Shown here one piece after another: positions 53,338 through 60,548 of a stretch of 64,000 nt of DNA. The notes under the pieces were generated by a model. That model was given only the letters and a program-made list of their open reading frames with translations. It ran no database searches and had not been told where the DNA came from. The DNA comes from Ruminococcus bromii. GTDB taxonomy: Bacteria > Bacillota > Clostridia > Oscillospirales > Acutalibacteraceae. The stretch lies in NCBI RefSeq assembly GCF_002834225.1, contig NZ_NNSR01000072.1, positions 90,251 through 154,250 on the forward strand, read 5' to 3'. Positions within the stretch are counted from its first letter, which is position 1. Each line of letters opens with the position of its first letter. Both the position numbers and the translations under genes were made by a program.

Positions 53338-53363
53338 AAATTTATCTGTATTTTTCTGAGTAA

Positions 53364-53576
53364 GTTATTGAATTTGCCGTAGCTCTATGCTATACTATAA
53401 TTAATTGATTGATTAGTTAATAAAAGGAAGCGAACTTTATGAGGACAACAGAGGAACAGCACAACGAGCGTAAGAGGGAAATGATGGAAAAATGCTTTGA
53501 ATGCTATGCTGAAAACGGATTGACCGGTACGGGCATCAAGGCTTTGGCGGCAGCGTGCGGCTGTACAACGGGAATT
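53364..53576 (+). repeat. Left copy of TetR promoter/5'-gene direct repeat
   Basis: About 212 bases match 57919-58131 in the same orientation, covering promoter, operator-like AT-rich region, ribosome site and the first 45 codons of the TetR gene. The match ends abruptly after ACAACGGGA. Confidence 0.9.
53368..53396 (+). promoter_or_regulatory. Promoter of the left TetR copy
   Basis: TTGAAT (53368-53373), 17-base spacer, TATACT (53391-53396). An imperfect palindrome centred on ATTGATTGATTAGTTAA (about 53401-53420) lies just after it and may be the TetR operator. Confidence 0.6.
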
Positions 53577-53609
53577 TTAATGCTTGAACAGAATACAAAT
53601 TTATTGTGA
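53439..53609 (+). pseudogene. Truncated TetR-family regulator (N-terminal fragment)
   Basis: Reads MRTTEEQHNERKREMM onward and is identical in protein to the TetR gene at 57994 for 45 residues, then turns into an unrelated 11-residue tail and stops (56 residues total). The break falls inside the recognition helix (TTGNLYSYF in the intact copy becomes TTGILMLEQ), and the ligand domain is absent. In 135 bases I count 7 differences from the intact copy, all silent. The 560-base stretch 53278-53839 otherwise holds the two terminators on either side of this fragment and nothing else that I recognise. Confidence 0.85.
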
Positions 53610-53685
53610 TGATAAACAGCTTTACAGCTATGTAAAAATTTTTATAGAGATATAATGATGAAATATAAAATATCGAAATAAGAAT

Positions 53686-53728
53686 AAACCTCCTGCACAG
53701 AGTAAAATCCGTTGCGGGAGGTTTTGTT
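53686..53728. terminator. Bidirectional terminator between TetR remnant and tlpA-like gene
   Basis: Twelve-bp stem AAACCTCCTGCA with a complement containing one G-T pair and a 15-base loop. T-rich sequence follows on both strands (TTTTGTTGT on plus; TTTATTCTTATTT on minus), so it can end the minus-strand redox operon. Confidence 0.75.
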
Positions 53729-53839
53729 GTACGAAAAATTATATGGGCTTAATTATTGGCATATTTGTTGGAATCTATATGTAAAATTTACAGAACCTGA
53801 AAATATGCATTATTGATACTTTGTCGGGACAGGTACACA

Positions 53840-54805
53840 TCAGTTCTTGCTGTTTGCAATTGCCTGATCAATCAACTTTTGCAGCTTTTCAGACTGCTTT
53901 TCGGAGGTTATTGCACCGACAATCGGCTCTCCTACAATATTACCGTTTTTATCAACAACATAAGTTGTGGGGTAGGAGTACAATCCGGATGTGAATTCTC
54001 CGGCTTTACTTTTTGAATCAAACCAAATGTTTTTGTAGGTCACACCCTTTTTTGCCAGAATATTCTTTGCGTCAGAGATAGCCGTTTTGTCACCGTCAAG
54101 TGTAAATGAATTGATTCCGACTACTGCTCCGCCTTTTTTTGCAAGCTGTTTATTCAGAGCTTCCAGGTCGGCAAGTTCTTCCACGCAGGGATTGCAGGTG
54201 GTAAACCAGAAGTTTACTACAGTAACGGTATTTTTTGCAAAAAGCATACTGCTCTTAACTTCGTTTCCGTCAAGATCCTTGCCGTCAAATGTCGGGAATT
54301 TCTTCAGATTATCCTTTTCGATGGGCTTACCGTTTTCCGCCGGAACGCTCATATCTCCATCAGACGGTTTTTGTCCGCATCCGGGAAATTTTTGTTCCAA
54401 AATCGTCAGCTTTCCTTCAATTTTCTTAATCTCTTCGGCGCTTTCATTAAGCAGCTTCAACTCATCTGCACTGAACTGATCCTTGATACCGTCAATCGTT
54501 TTCAGAAGAAAATCACCGTAGTTTCCGCCGTCCTCAATCATCGCCATACCCTTATCGGCTGAAATAAATACCTTTTCCCAAAGTTCGCTGTTTTCGGAAA
54601 GAATAGCATTTTCCTGTGCCATCAGTTTTTGATGCAGGTCGGCGGCCTCGTCTTTTGTGTTTGGATTCACAGCTGTCAGCATAGCCGTTTCACTTTTCTT
54701 ATTTGCGGTAGTATTCGTCGTATTGCCTTTGTTTGTGCCACAGGCGGCAAAGCTTAACAACATCATCAAGGCAGTCAGTAAGGTTAAAATTTTTGTTGTT
54801 TTCAT
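53840..54805 (-). CDS. TlpA-like thioredoxin-fold lipoprotein
   Basis: Predicted extracytoplasmic thiol-disulfide protein. The 321-residue product has a lipoprotein signal peptide with lipobox LSFAAC (Cys22), a Ser/Thr/Asn-rich linker, a helical domain (about residues 50-140) with no recognised family, and a C-terminal AhpC/TSA-TlpA domain with the redox motif WFTTCNPC (Cys204, Cys207) and cis-proline in SYPTTYVV. A GGAG site in the upstream gene's last codons precedes the ATG. It is the last gene of a minus-strand operon with the polyferredoxin; electrons likely reach the CNPC pair from that protein (inference). Confidence 0.92.
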   Translation of the reverse strand: MKTTKILTLLTALMMLLSFAACGTNKGNTTNTTANKKSETAMLTAVNPNTKDEAADLHQKLMAQENAILSENSELWEKVFISADKGMAMIEDGGNYGDFLLKTIDGIKDQFSADELKLLNESAEEIKKIEGKLTILEQKFPGCGQKPSDGDMSVPAENGKPIEKDNLKKFPTFDGKDLDGNEVKSSMLFAKNTVTVVNFWFTTCNPCVEELADLEALNKQLAKKGGAVVGINSFTLDGDKTAISDAKNILAKKGVTYKNIWFDSKSKAGEFTSGLYSYPTTYVVDKNGNIVGEPIVGAITSEKQSEKLQKLIDQAIANSKN

Positions 54806-54810
54806 GGTGT

Positions 54811-55794
54811 TTACTCCTTTTCTGTTTCAATTTCTGTTTCAATTTCTGTTTCAATTTTTTGTTTTGCTGTTTCCGCTTTTTCAGCGGGACAATCATTTTC
54901 TTTTCCTTTGCCAAAGCCGTAGCGAAAGCTGACCGCCTTGGCAGGACAGGCACGGATACACTTACCACAGCGTATGCATTCGGTGTGGTCGGGAGTTTTG
55001 GTTACATCTACATCCATCTTGCATACTTTGGCACACTTTCCGCAGGAAATGCATTTGTGTTTGTCTACTTTCATTCCGAAAAGCGACACCTTGTTAAGCA
55101 ATGCATAAAATGCACCGAGAGGACACAGCCACTTGCAGAACGGTCTGTAGAAAAGTACACTCAGTACGATTACCGTAATCAATATGCCTAGCTTCCATGA
55201 AAAGAGCGTACCCAGCGCGGCACGGATTCCCGAATCGACGGCGGCAAGAGGGATTGCCCCCTCGAGTACTCCTTGAGGACAAAGATACTTACAGAAAAAA
55301 GGATCTCCCATACCCACATCGTTTGTAATGAGCATTGGCAGCAAACCTACAGCAAAAAGCAAAACTGCATATTTTATGTATGTCAGCGGCTTCAGCTTTT
55401 TAGTGGAAAGCTTTTTTGTCGGTATCTTATGTAACAGTTCCTGAAGCCATCCGAACGGACACAAAAAGCCGCAGATAAAACGCCCGAGCAGAACTCCTAT
55501 CAATATGAGGAATCCTGTGATATAATATGAAAAACTGAATTTTGACGAACCCACTACGGCCTGAAACGAGCCGATTGGGCATGCACCCGATGCCGCAGGG
55601 CAGGAATAGCAATTCAGTCCCGGAACGCAAACAGCCTTTCCTTTGCCTTGATAAATTCTGCCCTTCAATAAATTCGGCAGATGAATATTACTCAGCAAAG
55701 TTGCTCCTGCTTGAATAAGCCATCGAAAGCGTGAGAGAAACTGCGATACACCGCCTCTTTTTTTCTTCGGTTCTTTGTTATCCAATTCCCACAC
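54811..55794 (-). CDS. NapH/CcoG-like polyferredoxin membrane protein
   Basis: The 327-residue integral membrane protein has about five membrane segments, several cysteine motifs at membrane borders (CYSCPAASGACPIGS, CGFLCPFGW, CKYLCPQG, CKWLCPLG) and two classic [4Fe-4S] ferredoxin motifs near the C-terminus (CISCGKCAKVCK, CIRCGKCIRACP). This matches the Fer4_5 electron-transfer family that includes NapH. It likely passes electrons across the membrane to a thiol partner. It ends with a Glu-Thr-Glu-Ile repeat encoded by tandem 12-bp units. Start GTG 55794 overlaps the CXXC peptide gene; TTG 55785 is an alternative. Five bases separate it from the TlpA-like gene. Confidence 0.92.
   Translation of the reverse strand: MWELDNKEPKKKRGGVSQFLSRFRWLIQAGATLLSNIHLPNLLKGRIYQGKGKAVCVPGLNCYSCPAASGACPIGSFQAVVGSSKFSFSYYITGFLILIGVLLGRFICGFLCPFGWLQELLHKIPTKKLSTKKLKPLTYIKYAVLLFAVGLLPMLITNDVGMGDPFFCKYLCPQGVLEGAIPLAAVDSGIRAALGTLFSWKLGILITVIVLSVLFYRPFCKWLCPLGAFYALLNKVSLFGMKVDKHKCISCGKCAKVCKMDVDVTKTPDHTECIRCGKCIRACPAKAVSFRYGFGKGKENDCPAEKAETAKQKIETEIETEIETEKE
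54819..54854 (-). repeat. Three 12-bp tandem units in the polyferredoxin 3' end
   Basis: TTTCTGTTTCAA (plus strand) occurs three times without gaps. On the minus strand it codes for repeated Glu-Thr-Glu-Ile, an acidic C-terminal tail. Slippage can change the tail length in frame. Confidence 0.9.
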
Positions 55795-55924
55795 ACTCCA
55801 AACACAGCCGGATTGCCTTGCTTAACACGGTTTCTGCCTCTCCACGCAGAGCTCCGTAACACAGCATCATAATTCCGCAGATAATCAGTACGATCTGAAA
55901 TACGGCTTTTTTCTTTCGAGTCAA
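55778..55924 (-). CDS. CD1871A-family small CXXC membrane protein
   Basis: A 48-residue gene starting at TTG 55924 with AGGAGTG 6 bases upstream. The product has a basic start (MTRKKK), one membrane helix (FQIVLIICGIMMLCYGAL), the segment RGEAETVLSKAIRLCLEC and the end VGIG. The CLEC pair and closing VGIG match what I know of the CD1871A CXXC family in Clostridia, which is also encoded beside 4Fe-4S and TlpA-like genes. Its stop lies inside the start region of the polyferredoxin gene, so the two are translationally coupled. Function is unknown; a redox partner or assembly subunit is inferred. Confidence 0.82.
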   Translation of the reverse strand: MTRKKKAVFQIVLIICGIMMLCYGALRGEAETVLSKAIRLCLECVGIG

Positions 55925-55952
55925 TTCGGTCACTCCTTTCTTTTGTGCTCTC

Positions 55953-56034
55953 ATTGTAGCACAGAGGATGTAAAATCCCTGTTAAGAACGAAAACTTAAC
56001 AAAAACTTTATGTCTGAGCGATATAATGTATAAT
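55953..56034. promoter_or_regulatory. Divergent control region of redox operon and two-component system
   Basis: The minus strand has TACAAT (complement of 55953-55958) as -10 box for the redox operon with no good -35. On the plus strand TATAAT occurs at 56022-56027 and again at 56029-56034, also with poor -35 boxes. Between them GTTAAG and CTTAAC (55981-55986 and 55995-56000) form an inverted repeat with 8-base spacing next to both -35 positions. Weak -35 boxes plus a shared repeat suggest activation by the response regulator encoded at 56078. Confidence 0.55.
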
Positions 56035-56077
56035 TAAATTATCAAAGAAATATGAAAACACAACAAGGAGAGTTTCT

Positions 56078-56755
56078 ATGCGTATTTTAGTAATTGAAGA
56101 CGAGCGTGCACTGTGCGAGACAATTGTTCGCAGCCTTAAAAGATTGGCATACAGCGTTGATTTTTGTTATGACGGAAACAAAGCAAATGAGTTGCTCGGA
56201 ATAGAAAAGTACGATCTTGTTTTACTTGATCTGAATTTACCCGGTGCAGACGGGATGACGGTACTGCGAACTCTGCGACAAACCGACAGAGATACCGGAG
56301 TGTTAATTCTTTCGGCACGCTGTGAGGTTGCCGACAAGGTGGAGGGGCTGGATGCCGGAGCAAACGATTACCTGACAAAGCCTTTTCATTTGGAGGAGCT
56401 TGAGGCAAGAATACGCAGTCTGACTCGCCGTCGGTTTACACAAAACAATGTTGTTTTGAACTGTGGAAAGGTTGCTTTTGACACCAAAGCCCGTGTTGCC
56501 GTTGCTGACGGTCAGGAGCTGTCACTTACCCGAAAAGAAATCGGAATACTTGAATATTTACTTCTTAATCAAGGTCGCCCCGTCAGTCAGGAAGAACTGC
56601 TCGACCATGTTTGGGATAACAGTGTTGACAATTTCAGCAATTCAATAAGAGTACATATTTCTGCATTACGAAAGAAACTGCGTGCGGTACTCGGCTATGA
56701 CCCGATTCGCAATCGCATTGGTGAAGGATATGTTATGGAGGAAGAAAAAGTATGA
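56078..56755 (+). CDS. OmpR/PhoB-family response regulator
   Basis: The 225-residue protein has a receiver domain with acidic pocket EDE near the N-terminus, phospho-acceptor Asp51 in LVLLDLNLPGADG and the lysine in TKPFHLEELEARI, then a winged-helix DNA-binding domain with SLTRKEIGILEYLL and the closing RIGEGYVM. AAGGAG precedes the ATG. The stop overlaps the kinase start by 4 bases. It faces the redox operon and is its most likely regulator. Confidence 0.95.
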   Translation: MRILVIEDERALCETIVRSLKRLAYSVDFCYDGNKANELLGIEKYDLVLLDLNLPGADGMTVLRTLRQTDRDTGVLILSARCEVADKVEGLDAGANDYLTKPFHLEELEARIRSLTRRRFTQNNVVLNCGKVAFDTKARVAVADGQELSLTRKEIGILEYLLLNQGRPVSQEELLDHVWDNSVDNFSNSIRVHISALRKKLRAVLGYDPIRNRIGEGYVMEEEKV

Positions 56756-57894
56756 AAAAGCTATCCTTGCAATGGCGCATAACTCTGATGACTGCACTTC
56801 TTATCGGAGCCACCTGTATTTTTATGAATGTTCTTATCGGCTATTCCGGCAGCCATTATATGGATTCCATAGGCTCTTATGTTACAGGTTACGGTGATAC
56901 GGACAAAGGAGAACCTGACTTTTTCGATCCCGAACACGAAAAGCTTGATCGTGAATTGACTATTGTAATTAACGGAGCACAGGAATCCTTTATCGCTACC
57001 AATTGGTATATTACGGCGGCGGCAACATTGTTAGGCGGTGTGCTTGCGTATTTTTTAAGCGGGCATGCACTGAAGCCTCTGCGTACTTTTACCGCTCGGG
57101 TTGAAAAGGTTCAACCTAACAATTTGACGGATATGAAGATAACCGAAGAAGTTCCGCCTGAACTGAGACAGTTTGTCAAGTCGTTCAATCGGATGCTTGA
57201 CCGTCTTGATGAGGGATTTACCGCTCAACGACAGTTCACGGGAAACGCCGCACATGAGTTGCGCACGCCGCTTTCGCTTATGCAGGCACAGCTTGAACTT
57301 TTTTCGGCAGAGCATCCCGAGGTATTGCCGGAAACGGCGGAGTTTCTCCGATTGTTGCGTGAGCAGACAGAACGAATGACGCAAATGACAAAAACCCTGT
57401 TGGAAATGAGCGAGCTGCGCACAGTATCGTGTGCCGACCGCATAGAGATAGGACCTATGGTAGAAGAGATTTTCACTGACCTTGCGCCCCTTGCAGAGAA
57501 AAACAACGTTACACTTGAAAGCACGGGAGACGCTGTTATGACAGGCAGTGACACGCTGATTTACCGTTTATTATATAATCTGACCGAAAACGCTATACGC
57601 TACAACCGTTTTAACGGTACAGTGAATATTACCGTAATGCACAAAGACAATCAGCTTGTTATTACGGTTGCGGATACCGGCTACGGCATCCCCGAACAAT
57701 ACAGAGAAAGTATTTTTCAGCCCTTCTTTCGTGTGGATAAATCCCGAAGCAGAGAATACGGCGGCGTAGGATTGGGACTTTCTTTGGTGTGGGAAATCGT
57801 TGCACTGCACAATGGTAAAGTTCGTGTGGAAGAAAGTTCGGAAAATGGTACTGCTATAGCAGTAAAGTTTCCGACAGATGTGATAAAAAATTAA
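56752..57894 (+). CDS. Sensor histidine kinase
   Basis: The 380-residue protein has two membrane helices (about residues 9-30 and 84-104) enclosing a short 55-residue extracellular part, a HAMP region, a HisKA domain with the phospho-accepting His168 in NAAHELRTPLSLMQ, and a HATPase domain with NLTENAIRYN, DTGYGIP, FFRVDKSRSREYGGVGLGLSLV. The extracellular loop is acidic and lacks cysteine, so it gives no hint of direct thiol sensing. Followed by the right TetR repeat after about 25 bases. Confidence 0.94.
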   Translation: MKKLSLQWRITLMTALLIGATCIFMNVLIGYSGSHYMDSIGSYVTGYGDTDKGEPDFFDPEHEKLDRELTIVINGAQESFIATNWYITAAATLLGGVLAYFLSGHALKPLRTFTARVEKVQPNNLTDMKITEEVPPELRQFVKSFNRMLDRLDEGFTAQRQFTGNAAHELRTPLSLMQAQLELFSAEHPEVLPETAEFLRLLREQTERMTQMTKTLLEMSELRTVSCADRIEIGPMVEEIFTDLAPLAEKNNVTLESTGDAVMTGSDTLIYRLLYNLTENAIRYNRFNGTVNITVMHKDNQLVITVADTGYGIPEQYRESIFQPFFRVDKSRSREYGGVGLGLSLVWEIVALHNGKVRVEESSENGTAIAVKFPTDVIKN

Positions 57895-57918
57895 TATTTT
57901 GCGATTTTTTATTAGTTA

Positions 57919-58131
57919 ATTGTTGAAATTGCCGCAGCTCTGTGCTATACTATAATTAATTAATTGATTAGTTATCAAAAGGAAGCGAACATTATGAGAA
58001 CAACAGAGGAACAGCACAACGAGCGTAAGCGTGAAATGATGGAAAAATGCTTTGAATGCTATGCTGAAAATGGGCTGACAGGTACGGGCATCAAGGCTTT
58101 GGCGGCAGCGTGCGGCTGTACAACGGGAAAT
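57919..58131 (+). repeat. Right copy of TetR promoter/5'-gene direct repeat
   Basis: Matches 53364-53576. The two copies are 4.55 kb apart and enclose the redox operon and the two-component genes. Confidence 0.9.
57923..57951 (+). promoter_or_regulatory. Promoter of the intact TetR gene
   Basis: TTGAAA (57923-57928), 17-base spacer, TATACT (57946-57951), followed by an AT-rich ATTAATTGATTAGTTA stretch shared with the left copy that could be the operator for autorepression. Confidence 0.65.
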
Positions 58132-58596
58132 CTGTATTCCTATTTCAACAGTGTTGATGAACTGATTATTGAATCAACTGCATACTGTATGGAAAAGGTC
58201 GAGGATGATTTTATGGAAAAAGCTCCCACCGACCCGAAGGATGTTGTTCGATTTGTGAAAGAGGTTCCGTATTGGACCGCAAAGAAGCACGGCAAGAAAT
58301 ATCGGCTTATGTATCAGGTCTATACCCATCCGAAATATATTGAGCACGGCAAGAAATTTTTTGAGGGGGTGAATGAGCGCTATACCGAGTATGCCAAGCG
58401 GCTTGAGCCGAAAATCGGCATTCCGTACACGGTGATTACACCGCTGATTTTTATATTTGTCCGTGCCTGTGTACATTATGCTATGTTTGAGGATGAATAT
58501 TATTTAAAAACCCAAATGGAGGTCTTAAAACAGGGTGTTGCCCTGTTTACTGATAAATACCGTTCACAATATTTGAAAGGAGGCAATGATAAATGA
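57994..58596 (+). CDS. TetR/AcrR-family transcriptional regulator
   Basis: The 200-residue protein has an N-terminal helix-turn-helix (GLTGTGIKALAAACGCTTG, NLYSYFNS) and a helical C-terminal ligand domain of no specific type (MYQVYTHPKYIEHGKKF and HYAMFEDEYYL visible). Its stop overlaps the start of the collagen-like gene (ATGA), so both are made from one message. It probably represses its own promoter and hence that surface protein. GGAAG lies 9 bases before the ATG. Confidence 0.93.
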   Translation: MRTTEEQHNERKREMMEKCFECYAENGLTGTGIKALAAACGCTTGNLYSYFNSVDELIIESTAYCMEKVEDDFMEKAPTDPKDVVRFVKEVPYWTAKKHGKKYRLMYQVYTHPKYIEHGKKFFEGVNERYTEYAKRLEPKIGIPYTVITPLIFIFVRACVHYAMFEDEYYLKTQMEVLKQGVALFTDKYRSQYLKGGNDK

Positions 58597-60548
58597 AAAA
58601 ACGAATATACTGTATTACCACCGCACTCTGTCTTGTGCTTTGCATCGTACTTTGCATTGCATTTGCTGCCGTATGCAGCAAGGCGGAAAATAGCAAAACC
58701 CTGTTGCCGGAGGTGCGAAATAACGGCACAGCAATCCAATGGAGAGATGCCGCCGAAGAGGAATGGCACGATCTTGTAGCTCTTAACACGCTCAGAGGTG
58801 CTGTCGGAGAAAACGGCAAGGACGGAATAAACGGCACTGACGGTAAAGACGGTCTTAACGGCAAAGACGGTACTGACGGCAAAAATGGCATTGACGGAAA
58901 AGACGGTCTTAACGGCAAAGACGGTCTTAACGGCAAAGATGGTACTGACGGAAAGAACGGTCTTAACGGCAAAGATGGTACTGACGGAAAGAACGGTCTT
59001 AACGGCAAAGATGGCATTGACGGTAAAAACGGCATTGACGGCAAAGACGGTACTAATGGAAAAGACGGTATTGACGGAAAAAACGGTCTTGATGGCAAAA
59101 ACGGTGCTGACGGAAAGAACGGCACTGACGGCAAAGACGGTACTGACGGTAAAAACGGTACTGACGGAAAAGACGGTATTGACGGTAAAAACGGCGTTGA
59201 CGGAAAAGACGGTACTGACGGAATAAACGGTACTGACGGTAAAGACGGCATTGACGGCAAAAACATAGAGGTACAAAGAACAACAGAATATATACAGTGG
59301 CGCTATGAGGGAGAAGACTGGCAAAACCTTGTTGCCATTTCCGATATAAAGGGACCCACAGGGCAGAACGGTAAAGACGGAGCAAACGGAAAAACACCGG
59401 AGTTCCGTGTAAATGAAAACAATCTTCAATGGCGTTATGTCAGTGACGAAATATGGCTAAATCTTTACGACCTTTCAAATTTGAAAGGTCTTGACGGAAA
59501 AGACGGAATCGACGGAAAGAACGGTGTCGATGGTATTGACGGCAAAAACGGTGATACACCGTTCATCGGTGAAAACGGCAACTGGTGGCTCGGAGTGACC
59601 GACATTGGCGTGAAAGCCGCAGGTGTTGACGGTGAAAAAGGTGACAAGGGAGATAAAGGAGATGCCGGACAGAACGGTAAGGACGGAGCAAACGGAAAAA
59701 CACCTGAGTTCCGTGTAAATGAAAATAACCTACAGTGGCGTTATGTCGGCGATGAAATATGGCTTAACCTTTATGATCTTTCAATTTTGAAAGGTCTTGA
59801 CGGCGCAGACGGTAAGGATGGTATAAACGGCAAAGACGGTGTTGACGGTAAAGATGGTGTTGACGGCAAGGACGGTGCCGATGGTAAGGATGGAACAAAC
59901 GGACAAAACGGTTCTGACGGCAAAGACGGCAACACCCCGTTCATCGGTGAAAACGGCAACTGGTGGATTGGAACGACCGATACGGGAGTGAAAGCCACAG
60001 GAGTTGACGGTGAAAAAGGAGACAAAGGAGACATCGGTGAAAAAGGCGAAAAGGGTGACAAAGGAGATAAAGGCGACAAAGGTGACGCAGGTCAGAACGG
60101 CAGCTGTTCGGGATATTTTTACGGAGAGGCAAACGCTCCGAGGACAGTACTGAATAACAGTCGTGTCAATATTTCTGTCTACGAAAAAATAAACAAGGGC
60201 GGCTTGATTTCATCCTACAGGAATAATATTACCCTCAAAAAAGGACATATTTACAATGTCTGCTTAAGCGGTTCTCTCGAAGTTGGTTCAAACGAATTTA
60301 ACAACAGCGGCAATTACTCTATTCAGATGACAGACGGTTATGATGACGATCTGTGCAGGGAGCTTACACGAATAAAAAGAGACGGGGCAAAAATACCGTA
60401 TACCAATGATCAACATTCCTTTAATTTCAACAGAATGTATGATGCGTCAAATAAAGACATTACATTGCAGTTGTGGTTTGAAAATTCGGCATATAATACT
60501 TATCTCGGTGGCTTCAGAGGTACTATTACAATAACTGCTCTTGATTAA
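58593..60548 (+). CDS. Collagen-like Gly-X-Y surface protein
   Basis: The 651-residue protein starts with a signal peptide or anchor (MKKRIYCITTALCLVLC, then ALA-rich), followed by Gly-X-Y tracts, mainly GKDG/GTDG/GKNG, in three blocks (about residues 70-225, 295-320 and 400-445) and charged EKGDKG blocks. Four copies of a short module with consensus QWR-x(5-7)-W-x-NL-x-x(4)-L-x-G separate the blocks, two of them near-identical at the DNA level (59390-59495 and 59697-59803). Two FIGENGNWW modules also occur. The C-terminal 150 residues form a globular domain (about 500-651) that may trimerise the helix. No sortase motif is visible. Similar QWR modules occur in phage fibre and gut collagen-like proteins. 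Confidence 0.88.
   Translation: MKKRIYCITTALCLVLCIVLCIAFAAVCSKAENSKTLLPEVRNNGTAIQWRDAAEEEWHDLVALNTLRGAVGENGKDGINGTDGKDGLNGKDGTDGKNGIDGKDGLNGKDGLNGKDGTDGKNGLNGKDGTDGKNGLNGKDGIDGKNGIDGKDGTNGKDGIDGKNGLDGKNGADGKNGTDGKDGTDGKNGTDGKDGIDGKNGVDGKDGTDGINGTDGKDGIDGKNIEVQRTTEYIQWRYEGEDWQNLVAISDIKGPTGQNGKDGANGKTPEFRVNENNLQWRYVSDEIWLNLYDLSNLKGLDGKDGIDGKNGVDGIDGKNGDTPFIGENGNWWLGVTDIGVKAAGVDGEKGDKGDKGDAGQNGKDGANGKTPEFRVNENNLQWRYVGDEIWLNLYDLSILKGLDGADGKDGINGKDGVDGKDGVDGKDGADGKDGTNGQNGSDGKDGNTPFIGENGNWWIGTTDTGVKATGVDGEKGDKGDIGEKGEKGDKGDKGDKGDAGQNGSCSGYFYGEANAPRTVLNNSRVNISVYEKINKGGLISSYRNNITLKKGHIYNVCLSGSLEVGSNEFNNSGNYSIQMTDGYDDDLCRELTRIKRDGAKIPYTNDQHSFNFNRMYDASNKDITLQLWFENSAYNTYLGGFRGTITITALD
58815..59268 (+). 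repeat. Gly-X-Y coding repeat tract
   Basis: Short degenerate repeats of 9 and 18 bases built on GACGGTAAA/AACGGC units code for about 50 Gly-X-Y triplets. Such tracts are prone to in-frame length change. Confidence 0.9.

Follow-up and report, generated by a model that had tools for sequence, protein, structure and literature searches.

In the CcdA-TlpA, CcdA-ResA, CcdA-Etrx and DsbD systems, a membrane protein conveys reducing power to a thioredoxin-fold protein located outside the cytoplasm. MsrAB is a neighbor of CcdA pathways in some genomes, and the pneumococcal CcdA-Etrx-MsrAB2 pathway is the experimentally studied example, as described in the available part of PMC3914529. A second group of related proteins comprises NapH/MauN, NosR and RdhC, which share a membrane module recognized by the Fer4_5 profile and CX3CP motifs, with NapH carrying a C-terminal 2x[4Fe-4S] domain. 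Ferredoxin:thioredoxin reductase transfers single electrons from ferredoxin to a dithiol by way of an iron-sulfur center and is a soluble, cytoplasmic enzyme. Finally, NCBIfam includes a family of small proteins (NF040920, 'CD1871A family CXXC motif-containing protein') that has a name without a function. A literature search with the name 'CD1871A' returned no paper, and the only account found, among the papers examined, of an operon of the type described here is a preprint of 7 November 2025 (PMC12637426) that lists a 4Fe-4S/TlpA/CxxC operon in six Clostridia and one other Firmicute. In the accessible sections of that preprint the operon is an uncharacterized redox operon that predicts immune-related adverse events of immunotherapy, and the reduction of extracellular or cell-surface targets is raised as a possibility; these sections contain neither an anatomy of a relay nor a test of co-occurrence, and mention no fusions and no exchange with CcdA.

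Here a locus on the minus strand (53840-55924) was investigated in the window, the whole 64,000-nucleotide stretch of Ruminococcus bromii DNA that was analyzed. The locus encodes a 48-residue CXXC peptide, a polytopic iron-sulfur protein (hereafter FER) and a TlpA-like protein, whose genes recur as neighbors in gut anaerobes, and comparative analysis suggests that the three form a ferredoxin-fed, CcdA-independent transmembrane thiol reductase, a reading to which we assign a probability of about 0.68. Similar to the CcdA and DsbD systems, a membrane protein would serve an extracytoplasmic thioredoxin-fold protein and MsrAB is found nearby in some genomes; the differences are that FER is without the CcdA/DsbD transmembrane domain (PF02683), that electrons would use iron-sulfur centers instead of disulfide exchange with thioredoxin, and that a separate CXXC peptide is present. 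FER shares two CX3CP motifs and the C-terminal 2x[4Fe-4S] domain with the NapH group, but has six extra invariant cysteines, a CXXC peptide as partner and TlpA in place of NapG or NosZ. The likeness to ferredoxin:thioredoxin reductase is confined to the single-electron-to-dithiol step proposed for FER, a membrane protein, and the reductase family was absent among the Pfam matches of the window proteins. The present analysis adds the co-occurrence and fusion data, a comparison of the cysteine anatomy with that of NapH, and the observations on CcdA exchange and on the link to MsrAB.

The three-gene locus and its setting

The three genes were located where the earlier note had placed them. The peptide gene (55778-55924) starts with TTG at 55924, 8 nt downstream of the end of an AAAGGAG sequence, and stops at 55778-55780. 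The product has a K/R-rich start, a single hydrophobic segment predicted to be a transmembrane helix, and the tail KAIRLCLECVGIG; in the window the C-terminus reads K-A-I-R-L-C-L-E-C-V-G-I-G, in which CLEC (55793-55804) is predicted to face outward based on the inferred topology. The peptide belongs to NF040920, matching positions 1-38 of the 38-position profile with 62.8 bits against a curated cut-off of 32, and a Pfam search of the peptide matched no family. The earlier note expected the small gene to be missed by gene callers, which is not generally the case: a RefSeq record annotates the peptide by name in Peptoclostridium acidaminophilum, where it adjoins a '4Fe-4S binding protein', with TlpA two genes upstream. 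Its remark that the role had not been described is accurate insofar as the family name carries no function, and requires amendment in that the NCBIfam name and the 2025 preprint on the operon exist.

The gene encoding FER (54811-55794; 327 residues) starts with GTG, or alternatively with TTG at 55785, overlapping the stop of the peptide gene by 17 nt or 8 nt, respectively. The ATG of the third gene (53840-54805; 321 residues) lies 5 nt past the FER stop. The N-terminal hydrophobic stretch of the encoded protein is a predicted signal sequence ending in LSFAAC, which we take to be a near-canonical lipobox. Matches to PF00578 (56.8 bits) and PF08534 (50.2 bits), together with CNPC (54185-54196) as the CXXC active site, identify the protein as a member of the TlpA/AhpC-TSA/Redoxin superfamily, and solved ResA- and TlpA-type proteins match it by sequence. 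The scores are below the cut-offs of all three curated NCBIfam models, ResA (48.1 of 170 bits), DsbE (47.2 of 123.15) and TlpA (45.7 of 230). The single PF00578 match found in the window's genome was this protein of the operon.

Divergent from the operon, on the plus strand, are genes encoding an OmpR-type response regulator (56078-56755) and its partner, a HAMP histidine kinase (56752-57894). A divergent two-component gene occupies the same position in 22 of the 90 loci having enough upstream sequence, and the pair (56078-57894) may regulate the operon. The region from 53575 to 57905 is flanked by direct repeats of 224 nt with 92% identity. The left copy includes a truncated tetR start and the right copy runs into an intact tetR, an arrangement consistent with insertion of a cassette beside tetR. 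A plasmid search for FER matched 1 of 72,556 records, giving no sign of spread by plasmids.

Conservation and co-occurrence of the CXXC peptide and its partners

The small gene is real. Codon-level constraint, on which the earlier note had made its proposal depend, was found in 17 disjoint close pairs compared over the 34 codons 5' of the FER overlap, with a pooled pS of 0.39 and pN of 0.09; one close pair (L092/L096) showed the opposite direction, with pS 0.07 and pN 0.09. These pairs replaced an all-pairs dN/dS comparison that was mostly saturated, in which dN was less than dS in 1364 of the 1445 pairs with dS<1.5. The ratio exceeded 1 in 11 of 58 disjoint pairs, at high divergence. The 126 loci with a peptide frame, numbered with the window as L001 and with some genes present in two loci, yielded 126 frames, and the tail C-x-x-C-x-G-x-G-stop was exact in 124. 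The two exceptions differ at the very end, L093 being three residues longer and L113 one shorter. All 124 exact-tail frames have lysine at -13, and 123 have glutamate between the cysteines. Since the codons of the tail vary synonymously (the last glycine is encoded by GGA, GGC, GGG or GGT), the results indicate that the peptide is conserved and not the DNA overlap. Furthermore, the tail is unchanged in L084 and L087, where the peptide gene lies approximately 1 kb after FER without overlap. Short forms of the peptide carry a net charge of +2.0 before the transmembrane segment and approximately 0 after it, suggesting an N-in, CXXC-out orientation that is the same as for the longer forms described below. 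A divergent clade with a CxSCIG-type tail scores in part near or below the NF040920 cut-off or is missed.

In the window's order, the family search found the peptide in 42 of 297 genomes and the FER profile (E≤1e-40) found FER in 42 of the same genomes; the two sets were identical, with 47 copies of each and the same five genomes having two, a test that is partly circular since proteins encoded next to the peptide gene were the source of the FER profile used at the order level. The peptide gene is directly 5' of FER in 46 of the 47 loci, the exception being genome G008 in which the two are on different contigs. The weakest FER match was 2.3e-102 in the order and 6.0e-61 outside, and the wide gap between these values and the limit of 1e-40 makes a threshold effect unlikely. 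A survey at the level of the phylum detected the peptide in 54 of 398 genomes, a count that includes the window's genome. Outside the order, FER was present in 53 of 53 peptide-positive genomes (the window's own left out) versus 3 of 107 peptide-negative genomes, and all three of the latter encode a divergent peptide directly upstream of FER with the tail CLSCIGVQ, CLSCIGIE or CFSCIGLE. In the window's genus, 2 of 60 genomes contain the peptide, counting the window's own, results suggesting a patchy distribution of the cassette there.

A scan of named genomes with the FER profile was also conducted, covering the best 80 of 591 relatives. The loci span Clostridia, Coriobacteriia (Collinsella and others) and one Spirochaetales metagenome-assembled genome. 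Among these best 80 of 591, the peptide is present in 79 loci and directly upstream of FER in 77, and TlpA was detected near FER, within the fetched DNA, in 75. The neighborhood search thereby bears out the claim that the small gene is conserved beside the other two. The remaining locus (L103) has FER and TlpA, and a search there for the peptide found none; this locus, as well as the five of 80 where TlpA was not detected within the fetched DNA, counts against the relay. TlpA-type neighbors occur both before and after FER, and of eight divergent-clade loci that were read, five show one. Thus, the three-part system of the earlier note appears from these comparisons to be a strict unit of peptide and FER, to which TlpA (75/80 named loci) is a usual but not constant partner.

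In six of the 47 order-level loci (L031-L036), FER and TlpA are encoded as one frame of 491-536 residues, direct evidence of joint action. One hydrophobic stretch separates the ferredoxin and TlpA domains of the fusions and, if it spans the membrane, the two domains are on opposite sides. In five of the six fusion loci the peptide is the end of a frame of 255-320 residues, with four hydrophobic segments preceding the segment of the peptide itself in all five. Assuming the N-terminus is inside, the four additional segments place the CXXC on the outside in 5 of 5.

Cysteine anatomy of FER and exchange with CcdA

FER matches Pfam families Fer4_5 and Fer4. The C-terminal ferredoxin domain was identified by a profile match with two four-cysteine motifs (54946-55053; C248, C251, C254, C258 and C273, C276, C279, C283) typical of two [4Fe-4S] clusters. 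The membrane part contains two CX3CP motifs that align with those of Escherichia coli NapH, C108-x3-C112 (55459-55473) and C220-x3-C224 (55123-55137), placing FER with the NapH/NosR/RdhC membrane module. FER is not a member of the NapH/MauN family TIGR02163, scoring 70.5 bits against a cut-off of 213.05 and only over residues 198-291, and the PF02683 profile had no match in FER. Eighteen cysteines are invariant among 60 aligned homologs. Twelve are also found in E. coli NapH; the other six, C56, C62, C65, C72, C168 and C172, are absent. These form the motifs C56-x5-C62-x2-C65-x6-C72 (55579-55629) and C168-x3-C172 (55279-55293). Hence, the four membrane-border motifs described in the earlier note are more precisely one four-cysteine motif and three CX3C motifs. 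Among eight loci read from the divergent clade, C56 is missing from all and C168 from three, a departure that counts against the relay, while C62, C65, C72 and C172 are always kept, from which the common core appears to be four outer and four inner cysteines.

The AlphaFold2 models of FER (pLDDT 87.5, pTM 0.82) and of the membrane part alone (pLDDT 86.6, pTM 0.81) show helices at approximately residues 15-35, 90-103, 132-155 and 188-214. If the ferredoxin domain is cytoplasmic and the segments alternate, then C56-C72 and C168/C172 are outside and both CX3CP pairs are inside. FER is therefore predicted to be a NapH module extended by six outward-facing cysteines. Loop charges fit this topology for loops 2-4 and the N-terminus. 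Loop 1, containing C56-C72, is positive (mean 3.8 K+R and 0.3 D+E) in violation of the positive-inside rule, which counts against the relay. In fold searches with FER and with the membrane part, matches were confined to the ferredoxin domain; among the matches listed for the membrane part there was no Rnf membrane subunit or CcdA, a result that is uninformative. According to the portion of PMC5928378 that is available, the CX3CP motifs of related proteins more likely form disulfides than hold clusters, given that the iron found per NosR did not exceed 8 atoms.

The distribution of CcdA was compared with that of the cassette in the window's order. PF02683 was above the cut-off in 4 of 42 carriers versus 97 of 255 non-carriers (p = 1.7e-4 in a Fisher test, uncorrected for relatedness), and in 10 of 27 carrier genera at least one carrier lacks CcdA and at least one non-carrier has it. 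The PF02683 profile search of the window's genome gave no match. The four carriers that also have CcdA belong to three genera and count against the relay. Overall, the pattern of presence and absence suggests that peptide, FER and TlpA probably replace the usual CcdA/DsbD route.

Genes adjacent to some of the loci point to a possible acceptor. In L133, L134, L135 (the same DNA as L102), L049 and L052, the peptide, FER and TlpA genes are followed, in the same orientation, by a gene encoding MsrAB with a lipobox-like start. Three of these loci are among the 47 order-level copies and three among the 80 named loci, one being common to both sets. CcdA loci of the same order have comparable arrangements: L132 has a lipoprotein-like MsrAB in the vicinity of CcdA and of a TlpA with WCGPC, and L130 and L131 have MsrAB, with no visible signal sequence, beside a CcdA-TlpA fusion reminiscent of the FER-TlpA fusions. 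MsrA as a general acceptor was rejected, with 7 of 42 carriers versus 54 of 255 non-carriers having it and none found in the window's genome, figures that also count against the relay. The acceptor role of MsrAB is kept only for loci in which MsrAB is adjacent.

Proposed electron path and alternatives

The earlier note had proposed a ferredoxin-driven path to an outside thioredoxin-like protein as an alternative to CcdA/DsbD, a proposal that now has strong comparative support from the co-occurrence, the fusions, and the depletion of CcdA with exchange within genera. We infer the topology, cluster content, and direction and order of electron flow as follows. Single electrons from reduced ferredoxin, or from some other cytoplasmic donor of low potential, would enter the two cytoplasmic [4Fe-4S] clusters of FER and pass by the inner-face cysteines C108, C112, C220 and C224 to C62, C65, C72 and C172 at the outer face (joined in the main clade by C56 and C168). 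There, a pair of single electrons would be converted to a dithiol. The peptide, oriented N-in and C-out beside FER, would offer the C-terminal CXXC as an exchangeable dithiol and reduce CNPC of the TlpA lipoprotein, which may then reduce extracytoplasmic targets such as the MsrAB lipoprotein in some species.

A more specific version is tentative, and we regard it with some doubt. In this version, FER would be a transmembrane iron-sulfur wire that founds a third type of membrane thiol reductase, one requiring neither CcdA nor thioredoxin. The inner C108/C112/C220/C224 and the outer C62/C65/C72/C172 would each hold a membrane-embedded iron-sulfur center. The outer center would resemble that of ferredoxin:thioredoxin reductase and would charge the 48-residue CXXC peptide, itself detachable, with a dithiol, and strict anaerobes would pay for outside protein repair with ferredoxin and not NADPH.

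The role of the peptide could be otherwise. As a structural or maturation subunit, it would contribute cysteines that complete an iron-sulfur or other metal site of FER, and FER would reduce TlpA directly. The co-occurrence and near-constant adjacency of peptide and FER, steadier than that of TlpA, and an invariant tail in place of a thioredoxin fold are in accord with such a subunit, which we nonetheless consider unlikely since the CXXC has the usual spacing for thiol exchange and FER already has 18 invariant cysteines. At a greater remove is the suggestion that peptide and FER have a function of their own, such as reducing a metal or small molecule outside the cell, with TlpA a mere common neighbor. 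The five of 80 loci with no TlpA detected near FER are expected from a separate task; the covalent FER-TlpA fusions (6/47) and the TlpA-type neighbors that persist on either side of FER, including in the divergent clade, are not, and the chance of it being correct is small.

The source and direction of the electrons also have alternatives. The membrane module of FER could draw electrons from menaquinol instead of ferredoxin for transfer to peptide and TlpA, the ferredoxin domain being an internal relay or docking part. The CX3CP motifs common to NapH and the Fer4_5 matches agree with this source, as does the four-segment module common to NapH, NosR and RdhC, which is the proposed quinol oxidizer of NapH in the part of PMC5928378 that is accessible. 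The six extra invariant cysteines suggest thiol chemistry, however, and the score of FER is far under the NapH cut-off, making menaquinol an improbable donor. Inward flow, in which TlpA would oxidize thiols outside the cell and the electrons would reach an acceptor in the cytoplasm by way of FER, in a DsbB-like, disulfide-forming role, draws on the fact that direction is not fixed by anatomy alone. Thiols have a potential of approximately -0.2 V and ferredoxin approximately -0.4 V. Since transfer from thiols to ferredoxin would be uphill by these textbook values, and since outward flow is favored both by the exchange with CcdA, which is a reducing path, and by the adjacency of MsrAB, the inward direction is very improbable.

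The outward, ferredoxin-fed relay bears on how anaerobes lacking CcdA and DsbD keep surface thiols reduced. If the proposal is correct, a cassette widespread in Bacillota and Coriobacteriia would link ferredoxin directly to extracytoplasmic thiols, and a named but unexplained 48-residue family would acquire a function. It would also provide a testable mechanism for an operon that, in the accessible sections of PMC12637426, is a marker of immunotherapy toxicity.

Direct repeats and tetR flanking the operon

The operon encoding the CXXC membrane peptide, the polytopic 4Fe-4S protein FER and the thioredoxin-family protein TlpA, together with its two-component system, is flanked on both sides in the window by copies of a 224-nt direct repeat (53351-53574 and 57906-58129) that are 92% identical to each other. 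The left copy holds a truncated start of tetR (53439-53609), and the intact tetR (57991-58593) is entered from the right copy. From this layout, the cassette appears to have been inserted or duplicated next to tetR. The plus-strand gene immediately 3' of tetR (58593-60548) contains 18-nt tandem units, and its 651-aa product carries long runs of collagen-like repeat sequence (GKDGINGTDG...).

Gene content of related loci

A large divergent gene adjoins the operon upstream of the peptide in all six loci of the FER-TlpA fusion clade (L031-L036), with frames of 1244-1528 aa in five loci and 371 aa in L036. In the Peptoniphilus loci L078, L080 and L081 the operon is followed by the gene for a protein of one cluster (L078 9040-10677) starting MSMFCFQCQE, which we take to be hybrid cluster protein; TlpA was not detected when the DNA of L078 was searched. 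Among the named loci, the best 80 of 591 relatives by FER profile, only L103 (5784-8858) contained FER and TlpA with no detectable peptide, and a glutaredoxin-like gene (CPYC) is located upstream. Two loci from the window's own family (L130, L131) encode a CcdA-TlpA fusion of 448 aa close to MsrAB, on which no signal sequence was visible.

Divergent peptides and NF040920

The peptide of the divergent clade L144-L151 ends mostly in CxSCIG-x-x rather than CLECIGIG, and the FER of this clade is without C56, a cysteine otherwise invariant in 60 aligned homologues. Since these peptides score near or below the NF040920 cut-off or are missed, the model under-calls the peptide family.
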